Positions 3,001 to 5,105 of a DNA stretch of 64,000 nt are shown here, one piece after another. Under the pieces are notes generated by a model, which saw only the letters and a program-made list of their open reading frames with translations, searched no databases and was not told the origin of the DNA. Positions within the stretch are counted from its first letter, which is position 1. Every line of letters starts with the position of its first letter. Origin of the DNA: Parahoeflea alexandrii (GTDB taxonomy: Bacteria > Pseudomonadota > Alphaproteobacteria > Rhizobiales > Rhizobiaceae). The translations under genes were made by a program, and so were the position numbers. The stretch covers positions 124,001 to 188,000 of the forward strand of contig NZ_JAPWHB010000002.1 in assembly GCF_027214025.1 (NCBI RefSeq). The letters are read 5' to 3'.

Positions 3001-3555
3001 CACGACCTTGCCCATGTCGACACCTCCGACTTCGGCAACACCGCGCTCGGCAAGGGCATCTCGGAAGGCAAGGCGCAGCCCTTCTCCAAGGGCCTGACCC
3101 GCGGCGCCTCGCTGAAGGTCGTCACCGGCGCCGGTGCAGCCGGCACCGCCGAACCGAAAGGCCAGGCAGCGCCCGCCAAGGCAAGCCCCTCCGGCGCCTC
3201 GGTGATCACCGCCTCGTTCTCGTCGAAGACCACGTCGAGCAAGGCGTCGGGCAATCTCGCCGTCCGCGCCGAACCGGAAGCCATCGCCTCCGACGGCGGC
3301 GTCGCCTTCAAGCGTGACTACGAGGAACGCGCCGAGGAACTGGCCGTCGAGATCGAGTTGGAGGAAACCCTGTTCACCGACGAAGCCGCCGAGACCGCGG
3401 CCAACGCCAAGAAGCTCGAAGCCGACCGCCGCGCCAAGTCGATCATGCAGGGCTACACCGGCAACATGTGCACCGAATGCCAGAACTTCACCATGGTCAG
3501 GAACGGCACCTGCGAGAAGTGCGACACGTGTGGAAGTACGAGCGGGTGTAGCTGA
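1..3555 (+). CDS. nrdJ: Vitamin B12-dependent (class II) ribonucleoside-diphosphate reductase, 5' end outside the window
   Basis: Reduces ribonucleotides to deoxyribonucleotides using adenosylcobalamin to make the active-site radical. The reading frame is open from base 1, so the true start lies upstream; 1184 residues are visible. Seen: an N-terminal SPQWFNTGL block, the NPCSE and CNLASLNL motifs of the RNR barrel, the PTGTIG loop, and a C-terminal Cys-rich tail (CTECQNF...[13 protein letters not shown]) like the zinc-ribbon/redox tail of large NrdJ enzymes. A low-complexity Ala/Lys/Ser linker precedes a TSCxxC-type tail. It ends with TGA followed at once by a hairpin terminator, so it is the last gene of its transcript. 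Class II enzymes work with or without oxygen but require cobalamin. The call is firm; only the start is unknown. Confidence 0.96.
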
Positions 3556-3640: not shown

Positions 3641-3683
3641 GCATCACGGAATGGATCCTCGGCTCGGGGGCCGAGGATGACGA
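3641..3683 (+). repeat. 43-bp palindromic intergenic repeat, copy A (CTCGGC stem type)
   Basis: Starts GCATCACGGAATGGATCC, then a hairpin (CCTCGGC / GCCGAGG), ending GATGACGA. It matches copy C at 4249-4291 almost perfectly. It matches the reverse complement of copies B and D in the flanks but differs in the stem bases. It is a REP-like extragenic element of the kind common in Rhizobiales intergenic regions. Confidence 0.85.
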
Positions 3684-3820
3684 CCCAGAGATTGCTGCAA
3701 TATGGCAGTGAAAGAGTCAGTCGAAAAGACAATGCAGGGTGCCTGCCAGAGAGAACGACAACAGAGCCTTCAAAAAGACATCCGCCGAACTCGGATGAAT
3801 TTGAGACGGTACCCCCATCT

Positions 3821-3863
3821 TCGTCATCCTAGGGCCCCGACCCTAGGATCCATTCCGTGATGC
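3821..3863 (-). repeat. 43-bp palindromic intergenic repeat, copy B (CTAGGG stem type)
   Basis: Inverse orientation to copy A. The outer sequence is the same (GCATCACGGAATGGATCCT when read on the minus strand), but the stem reads ATCCTAGGG / CCCTAGGAT, so both arms have changed together relative to A. It forms an inverted pair with A across 137 bp. Confidence 0.85.
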
Positions 3864-3937
3864 CGCCCAATACGGCGCGCCATCGCAGGGCAGCGCTCCT
3901 GCCTCACCGCGCGAAACAAACGAACGGCCCTAACCCA

Positions 3938-4225
3938 TCACCACCCGGTCCCGCGAAACAGCTCTGACCAGTCCGGATTGGTCTTCTCGATCAAGTCGAT
4001 CTTCCATTGCCTTGGCCAGCGCTTGAGCGATTTCTCGCGCTGGATCGCGTCGCTGATGTCGAAATGCTCCTCATACCAGACCAGCCTGCGCACACCGTAC
4101 CGGCTGGTAAAGCGAGAGCCGGTGCCAGCCACATGCTCCGGAATCCGCCGCCCCAGATCATTGGTCACGCCGATGTAGATCGTCCCGCCCTTTCGGCTGG
4201 CGAGCATGTAGACATAGCCAGTCAT
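3938..4225 (-). CDS. GIY-YIG superfamily nuclease domain protein, 95 aa
   Basis: A single-domain GIY-YIG protein. The N-terminal GYVYMLASRKGGTIYIGVTNDL carries the family's two-strand signature (YVYML and IYIGVTNDL), followed by the conserved Arg of the LGRRIPEH helix and the REKSLKRWPRQWKIDLIEK region. The C-terminus ends in NPDWSELF, typical of the short bacterial UPF0213/YhbQ-like group. This fold cuts DNA in homing endonucleases, UvrC and repair enzymes; the role of stand-alone bacterial members is mostly unknown. The gene sits alone between two inverted pairs of 43-bp palindromes (A/B on one side, C/D on the other), which suggests a link to these repeats. No operon partner is present. 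Confidence 0.9.
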   Translation of the reverse strand: MTGYVYMLASRKGGTIYIGVTNDLGRRIPEHVAGTGSRFTSRYGVRRLVWYEEHFDISDAIQREKSLKRWPRQWKIDLIEKTNPDWSELFRGTGW

Positions 4226-4248
4226 ACGCGGATGATACCGCAGGTTGC

Positions 4249-4291
4249 AGCATCACGGAATGGATCCTCGGCTCGGAGGCCGAGGATGACG
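4249..4291 (+). repeat. 43-bp palindromic intergenic repeat, copy C (CTCGGC stem type)
   Basis: Nearly identical to copy A, including the CTCGGC/GCCGAGG stem; one loop base differs (CTCGGAGGCC versus CTCGGGGGCC). It begins 23 bp upstream of the GIY-YIG start codon and pairs with copy D across 91 bp. Confidence 0.85.
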
Positions 4292-4382
4292 ACGGTGAGA
4301 GGAAGCCGGGACGACGGACAAATTAGGGAACCAAGACAAGTGCAAATGCCTAAGGTGTGCAACGCTGACCGCCCCACACTCT

Positions 4383-4425
4383 TCGTCATCCTAGGGCCCC
4401 GACCCTAGGATCCATTCCGCGATGC
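4383..4425 (-). repeat. 43-bp palindromic intergenic repeat, copy D (CTAGGG stem type)
   Basis: Nearly identical to copy B (one change: CCGCGATGC for CCGTGATGC), same minus orientation and same CTAGGG stem. The four copies therefore alternate + - + -, with the two stem types alternating too. Confidence 0.85.
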
Positions 4426-5105
4426 CACAACGTCGCACGAACCACCGCTTGGCACGCGTCGGCAAGTCCCCCGCGTACAATCCCCTCCCTCACCATCTGA
4501 CATTCCAACCACTTGCCCCAAAACCAGCCCAGTCTTTTCCCCACCCCACCCCCGCATGCGACACTGGCACTGCCTTTCGCCAGATCGGATGTTTCGGGGC
4601 CACGGACCCCGGGGCGGCGGGGGACGGTAGATCCGGTTCGTGCGGAGCCGAACCGCGGGGGCCGGAGGGATTGAGCAACGATCATCCCGGCGCACTGTCG
4701 AAGGATTGGCGCCGGTGCCGGTGACCCGGCTGACCCGTGTCAGCCACCGGCAAGCCCGCAAGATGCGATGGTCGCAGGACCTGAGCATGCTCCGGGCAGG
4801 ACGGGTTCGGCGGCGCGGGCCGCCAAACGATGACAGCCGTCCGCGCGAGTGATCGCAATCAATTCAGGAACCACCCGGCGCCCGGAAGGCATCGGGTCCG
4901 ACACCGGCGGGGTCAGCGCGAGCGAGCCAATGCCAACACCCTAGTATTCCATTCGGGCACGCCCGAGCGCCCCGCATTCCGGCCTGTCACAGACAGAACC
5001 CGGAACCCGGACTGATCAGACCGTCGGTGACATTGTCACGCGCGGTTATCGGCGTATGTGCAAGCGGTGCGGCGGCTCAACGGACCACGCCGCGAGCCAT
5101 GCGCC
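4426..5105. other. 680-bp GC-rich intergenic stretch, no gene recognised
   Basis: No reading frame here has a convincing ribosome-binding site or family resemblance; short open frames exist in several frames, as expected from base composition. Several GC hairpins are visible (for example around 4600-4640), but I recognise no tRNA, SRP RNA, riboswitch or other known RNA. It may be decayed sequence next to the repeat cluster. Confidence 0.5.

Follow-up and report, generated by a model that had tools for sequence, protein, structure and literature searches.

Do a small nuclease gene and the inverted hairpin repeats around it form a working pair, and if so, does the nuclease spread the repeats? 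The question is raised by a locus in the window, the whole 64,000-nucleotide stretch of the Parahoeflea alexandrii genome analyzed here, in which a gene for a 95-aa GIY-YIG nuclease (3938–4225, minus strand; an ORF with a Pfam PF01541 match) lies among four 43-nt repeats of alternating orientation: A (3641–3683, minus), B (3821–3863, plus), C (4250–4292, minus) and D (4383–4425, plus). An earlier sequence-only reading had described this layout, with one stem common to A and C (CCTCGGC/GCCGAGG) and another to B and D (CCTAGGG/CCCTAGG), and both the positions and strands and the shared stems are confirmed. It had also placed the nuclease where a RAYT, the transposase of REP elements, would be expected, and had proposed a poorly described repeat-spreading or repeat-cutting system.

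Repeats and nuclease at the window locus

In each unit the CGTC tag is followed by a 9-bp stem that closes a 6-nt loop, and then by an unpaired tail, CCATTCCG(T/C)GATGC. The stem is ATCCTCGGC/GCCGAGGAT in A, whose tail is CCATTCCGTGATGC, and in C, and ATCCTAGGG/CCCTAGGAT in B and D; the tails of B and C face the gene, downstream of its stop and upstream of its start, respectively. The units had been called 43-bp palindromes, which is true of the inner 24 nt, whereas the remainder comprises the CGTC tag on one side and an unpaired 14-nt tail on the other. As single-stranded DNA, the four units have predicted folding energies of -7.8 to -9.6 kcal/mol (z -2.1 to -2.9). The two arms change together, as had been claimed, and do so more than chance allows: in 33 distinct units of the genus loci, gathered without any stem requirement, Watson-Crick pairs fill 94.6% of stem cells vs. 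77.9% (maximum 84.5%) when the 3' arms are shuffled 2000 times, and stem pairs 5, 6 and 9 each occur as at least two Watson-Crick types in several units. A looser collection of 90 units, many of them plain chance matches, is 68.6% paired vs. 48.9% after shuffling (maximum 54.8%, 1000 shuffles).

The window repeat is a CGTC-tagged REP. All four units carry an unpaired CGTC at one end, the 9-bp stems ATCCTCGGC and ATCCTAGGG fall within the 8–9 bp of the class and open with AT, the unpaired tail, CCATTCCG, is of the CCA kind, and the dispersed copies in the same genome are often inverted dimers. The 6-nt loop departs from the usual 4–5 nt but is not treated as excluding, because the survey of these repeats, in the part available, reports other loop lengths or compositions in some families (PMC3733652). 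Rfam returns four matches, all far under the gathering score, the best being plant-type miRNA models, which any long inverted repeat would fit. A terminator scan finds nothing at the four repeats, which are thus unlike classic terminators, and two weak terminator-like sites on the minus strand between A and B.

The protein matches Pfam GIY-YIG at 64.7 bits (cut-off 22.6) and is one of three such matches in the window's own genome (G000, 5.54 Mb). Across 28 relatives, Y6, Y17, R27, E64 and N83 are invariant and H31 is conserved in at least 90%; we take these to be the catalytic positions. The AlphaFold model has a mean pLDDT of 93.1, and the closest solved structures, by sequence and fold, are the UPF0213 GIY-YIG proteins 1zg2 and 1ywl, which differ from it in sharing 28–30% identity in the fold alignment. 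No NCBIfam family is matched. A defence system was considered and rejected, the best PADLOC match reaching E=0.04, to PDC-S14; a phage origin was likewise rejected, since all 11 phage records fall below 60% identity and the ten listed are at about 33–39%. Members of the family are common, occurring in 124 of 398 genomes of the phylum at E 1e-8 or better.

Dispersed copies in the genome and genus

Sought across its own and related genomes, the 43-mer proves not to be limited to the window locus. G000 contains at least 14 units, four of them at the GIY-YIG gene and the rest mainly in dimers; this count combines 12 arms with at most one mismatch and two dimer partners with two mismatches, while other two-mismatch places are taken as chance (a reversed-pattern control gave 1+1). 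The arm is present in 15 of 18 genus genomes, against a single match in one genome for the reversed control, and relatives of the protein are found at E 0.001 or better in 12 of the 18. Seven genus genomes have a close orthologue (at least 91%), with repeat units within 500 bp in every case. Five others (G151, G155, G162, G163 and G164) carry the repeat but give no GIY-YIG protein match, so the repeats persist without the gene.

The dispersed dimers have their CGTC heads outside and their tails facing each other, and the distances between hairpins, among 62 distinct heads-out pairs, cluster at 50–52 nt (19 pairs) and 84–86 nt (13 pairs). B, the gene and C are oriented like such a dimer, the gene standing in for the short spacer. 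Three gene copies stand in tandem with repeats between them in G159, one of them with an internal stop, and G152 has one intact copy plus short remnants between further repeats; repeats and gene thus appear to duplicate and decay together in these genomes. Taken with the orientation of the units, the tandem copies and remnants suggest that the core unit at the window locus is B–gene–C (3821–4292, not assigned to a strand), heads out and tails in.

Repeat types and nuclease types are partly matched within the genus. Dispersed type-1 copies are only marginally commoner in genomes that have the close orthologue (p=0.051), and dispersed type-2 repeats are commoner in genomes with a second nuclease type (p=0.011); the crossed pairs, each nuclease type with the other repeat type, are not associated (p 0.73 and 0.82). 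These p-values ignore relatedness, and the underlying counts have near-gene units subtracted, the figures for G139 and G165 being estimates. Elsewhere in the same genome (L266, G000:C21:267000-270800), five CGTC arms lie among three neighboring paralogous genes sharing TFADINDPASVARVDPDDxAA, and CGTC units may have helped the duplication of these genes.

Association, pairing and geometry across the phylum

The association of CGTC hairpins with the gene family is phylum-wide. Around 85 distinct relatives (at least 50% identity, 61 genomes; four paralogues below 40% kept apart), 179 hairpins lie within 500 bp of the gene (2.12/kb) and 33 beyond 600 bp (0.123/kb). The set joins 70 places from a longer hit list, taken mostly best first, with 24 genus loci; some places, including contig ends, were skipped, hits of less than about 55 query residues dropped and duplicates merged. 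The first detector finds a nearby hairpin at 57 of the 85 genes, and on both sides at 40. A second detector, which allows long loops, counts 194 near and 33 far and reaches 68 genes; among the units missed by the first are long-loop ones in Mesorhizobium (L288, L289, L292 and L295), some with an inner hairpin. By either detector, 73 genes have a hairpin, or 72 without that at L150, which is unlike the rest and makes this locus a thirteenth exception beside the 12 genes where neither detector finds one.

The enrichment is specific to CGTC. With the first detector, ten of 11 other orderings of the same letters give 1–32 near hits; CCGT gives 72, overlapping CCGTCAT, that is, the real tag. Three control tags give 0–1 near hits with the second detector and, by either detector, mark 2, 6 and 3 of the 85 genes, while GTAG hairpins near family genes number 3 and 0 by the first and second detectors. 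GIY-YIG orthologues thus adjoin the repeats more often than chance, as the sequence-only reading had anticipated; it had named dispersed repeats without enrichment near GIY-YIG genes as the outcome that would speak against the idea, and the repeats are dispersed but strongly enriched there.

Named genomes give a similar picture. Among the best 80 of 579 loci, 113 hairpins are near (1.42/kb) and 35 far (0.098/kb); the first detector marks 45 loci, the second 52 and either 61, leaving 19 at which neither finds one. The two sets are not independent, because L304, L335, L338 and L342 belong to both. A further 40 places were taken from the phylum-genome search; with the first detector only, CGTC hairpins are present at 21 of 28 loci in other proteobacterial classes and at 6 of 12 in other orders of the same class. 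Of four remoter GIY-YIG paralogues (33–35%), one has a nearby CGTC hairpin, unlike the other units. At L367–L393, in other proteobacterial classes, flanking repeats near CGTCATTCCCGCGAAGGCGGGAATCCAG recur at nuclease genes in several families, which may mean that gene and repeat spread horizontally together.

The carriers of CGTC repeats named in the available part of the survey include Neisseriae, S. meliloti, A. lipoferum and N. aromaticivorans (PMC3733652). One record of each has CGTC hairpins within 500 bp of a relative of the gene, as does an Aeromonas record, so that five of seven records, chosen out of 41 and scanned with stems of at least 7 bp accepted, show the association; the Planktothrix and Spirosoma plasmid homologues (cyanobacterial and Bacteroidota) lack CGTC hairpins across the 6.3 kb examined. 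The Planktothrix relative (L411, p1, 3001–3285) lies between an MmeI-type restriction enzyme and DISARM DrmA. Two plasmid-labelled records, NZ_CP119140.1 (2.17 Mb, gonococcal) and CP090106.1 (3.7 Mb, S. meliloti ‘pSymB’), are of a size that suggests mislabelled chromosomes. In N. gonorrhoeae 2022NG-0076, 16 units lie within 900 bp of a gene whose product shares 51% identity with the window protein over 90 aa. The motif of these units is presumably that of dRS3. As the survey, in the part available, equates CGTC-1 of Neisseriae with dRS3 (PMC3733652), the gonococcal homologue is placed amid dRS3-type repeats on both grounds.

Repeat and protein vary together. Across the 56 genes that have typical units, the more alike the proteins are, the more alike are the repeats (Mantel r 0.58 for the tail and 0.51 for the stem; 0 of 2000 permutations each), although part of this correlation comes from linkage, because linked sequences share descent. 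In comparisons between paralogues within a genome, the tail is nearer to that of the closest protein elsewhere than to that of the own-genome paralogue in 21 of 28 comparisons and goes the opposite way in seven, and the stem is nearer in 26, with two ties; the 28 rows are not independent, since 16 come from G159. Most relatives examined adjoin their own version of the repeat, so the nuclease is probably a dedicated partner of the repeat family. The arrangement is mostly a mirror one: of 41 genes with units on both sides, 32 have the two nearest ones inverted (20 with tails in and 12 with heads in; p 0.0002) and nine have them direct, while at 17 of 24 named loci they are inverted (p 0.03). The 41 two-sided genes counted here exceed the 40 of the enrichment count owing to slightly different bounds.

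Could these be ordinary intergenic REPs that gather in non-coding DNA, where a short isolated gene offers room, and that act at mRNA ends or as stabilizers? The repeats are indeed intergenic and their stems could act in RNA, but with counting confined to intergenic DNA (by a crude mask of ORFs of 90 aa and longer) their density near the gene is still 4.4-fold higher in the 85-gene set (3.27 vs. 0.75/kb) and 6.7-fold higher in the named genomes (1.95 vs. 0.29/kb), and plain intergenic crowding was rejected on this ground; in addition, the control tags show no comparable enrichment, the type of repeat follows the type of protein, and the association recurs in unlike gene neighborhoods, all of which makes this account improbable. 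It is very improbable that a RAYT or another Y1/HUH transposase spreads the repeats while the GIY-YIG gene is a passenger. A Y1_Tnp match is present in 5 of 18 genus genomes, and GTAG REPs are linked to RAYT in the available part of the survey (PMC3733652); yet Y1_Tnp (PF01797) has no match in G000, on which ground a RAYT was rejected as mobilizer there, nor in 12 others of the 18, ten of 15 repeat-bearing genus genomes are without one, and the 2013 survey, in that same part, found no case of CGTC units flanking a tyrosine transposase gene (PMC3733652). The sequence-only reading is supported in part, in that the RAYT-like place it proposed for the GIY-YIG gene holds up, on the enrichment at family genes, the joint variation of repeat and protein and the lack of a Y1/RAYT match.

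Movement, mechanism and known systems

The only convincing presence/absence pair found is in the suf operon of Azospirillum. A. lipoferum 4B has the gene between sufB and sufC with a heads-out dimer on either side, whereas the flanks match 11 other Azospirillum records, among the matches listed, in two pieces (61–64% query cover); the five examined have a short intergenic gap without the gene, and three of them are 95–97% identical in the flanks. The ends of the block are not base-exact, with some 20–50 nt beside it unaligned by eye. Insertion in A. lipoferum explains this more simply than loss elsewhere. At the window locus, which lies beside nrd, the gene is syntenic in the six compared genomes that have it there, which argues against recent hopping; it is absent from the nrd locus, with no clean scar, in G151, G156, G163, G164 and G165. 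A base-exact empty site was found neither among the loci examined, the flanks of L013 and L012 included, nor in the genus comparisons. At wider tolerance, some copies of a larger dispersed repeat contain dimers and others do not, with blurred ends.

This larger repeat, near L012 and in G046, G152 and G153, with CGTC dimers in some copies, resembles the DNA at 4499–5055 of the window, segments of which match several places in genus genomes and represent another dispersed intergenic repeat of a few hundred bp. The L011 site is occupied by a type-1 dimer in G000 and G151 and by a type-2 dimer in G161, and the G046 and G160 segments show no CGTC hairpin by eye.

The window gene probably encodes a small site-specific GIY-YIG nuclease with the CGTC-tagged hairpin as its cognate recognition sequence, that is, a candidate cutter and its site. 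Its best reading is as a relative of Ssn, and of the Ssn kind; a 2025 paper reportedly describes Ssn as a site-specific single-strand GIY-YIG nuclease of Neisseria with a repeat target, NTS, and many homologues, and the gonococcal homologue of the window gene is presumably this published enzyme. Quite possibly, such a nuclease modulates genome dynamics or DNA uptake, as Ssn reportedly does in Neisseria, at repeats that multiply by other means, a view that shares the enzyme-site pairing and differs only in mobilization. The gonococcal homologue, 51% identical and amid dRS3-type repeats, the synteny of the window locus and the persistence of repeats in genomes without the gene all favor a modulator of this sort, while the two preferred dimer spacings (32 of 62 pairs), the tandem repeat-gene modules and the Azospirillum block have the anatomy of mobile elements.

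If the nuclease is paired with the repeat as a cutter with its site, it would bind the hairpin that the repeat forms in single-stranded DNA, as arises in replication, repair or DNA uptake, and would cut one strand near the tag or tail; such cuts might promote copying, deletion or exchange at the repeats. Heads-out dimers (CGTC–stem–tail–spacer–tail–stem–CGTC) could then be non-autonomous derivatives of the repeat–gene–repeat unit, by analogy with REPINs as derivatives of RAYT. It is plausible that the nuclease spreads the repeats. A tentative and rather doubtful extension would make the GIY-YIG family the missing mobilizing enzymes of the whole CGTC REP superfamily, with repeat–gene–repeat units as autonomous elements and heads-out dimers as their non-autonomous offspring; if true, hairpin elements would be spread by a single-strand-specific GIY-YIG nuclease independently of HUH transposases.

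The idea, called poorly described in the sequence-only reading, is less undescribed than thought, because a related GIY-YIG/repeat pair of Neisseria, Ssn, has reportedly been published; no publication joining GIY-YIG with REPs was found among the matches listed, judged by titles and abstract openings. GIY-YIG and RAYT are merely co-listed in one gene table in the available part of PMC9465073, and CGTC appears only in a reference in PMC6006769 and likewise in PMC12306157. CGTC REPs, to which the dRS3 repeats of Neisseria belong, are known from five phyla and chiefly from alphaproteobacteria; according to the available part of the survey, they apparently have no dedicated transposase and no enzyme for them was found (Di Nocera et al., 2013; PMC3733652). 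As described in that part, this superfamily has in common with the repeats studied here the CGTC tag, an 8–9-bp stem opening with AT, a CCA-type tail, dimers and an intergenic location, and differs in its usual loop of 4–5 nt (here 6 nt) and in lacking a dedicated enzyme where a GIY-YIG gene regularly adjoins here (PMC3733652). A nuclease gene accompanied by its own repeat variant offers a testable answer to this gap, together with many naturally occurring candidate pairs of enzyme and site; the pairing rule is wide and well supported.

In REPtrons (REP/REPIN plus RAYT), too, a single small gene of nuclease type is surrounded by inverted hairpin repeats, and non-coding dimers are dispersed elsewhere. 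Here, however, a GIY-YIG protein takes the place of HUH/Y1, with no Y1/HUH transposase beside the repeats, and the tag is CGTC rather than GTAG; the locus may represent a second way, besides the HUH one, for small hairpins to accumulate in genomes. The likeness to Ssn extends to the enzyme itself: both are GIY-YIG proteins, and the gonococcal homologue, at 51% over 90 aa, lies amid CGTCATTCCCGC-type repeats. Two of the features by which Ssn is said to be recognized are present as well, namely a single GIY-YIG domain with intact catalytic residues, judged from sequence and predicted structure, and a candidate cognate repeat that both flanks the gene and is scattered through the genome; the third, sequence-specific cleavage confined to single-stranded DNA, would be expected of the window protein if the kinship holds. 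The window system differs from Ssn in its repeat sequence, its low copy number, its heads-out dimers and the placement of the gene within such a dimer.
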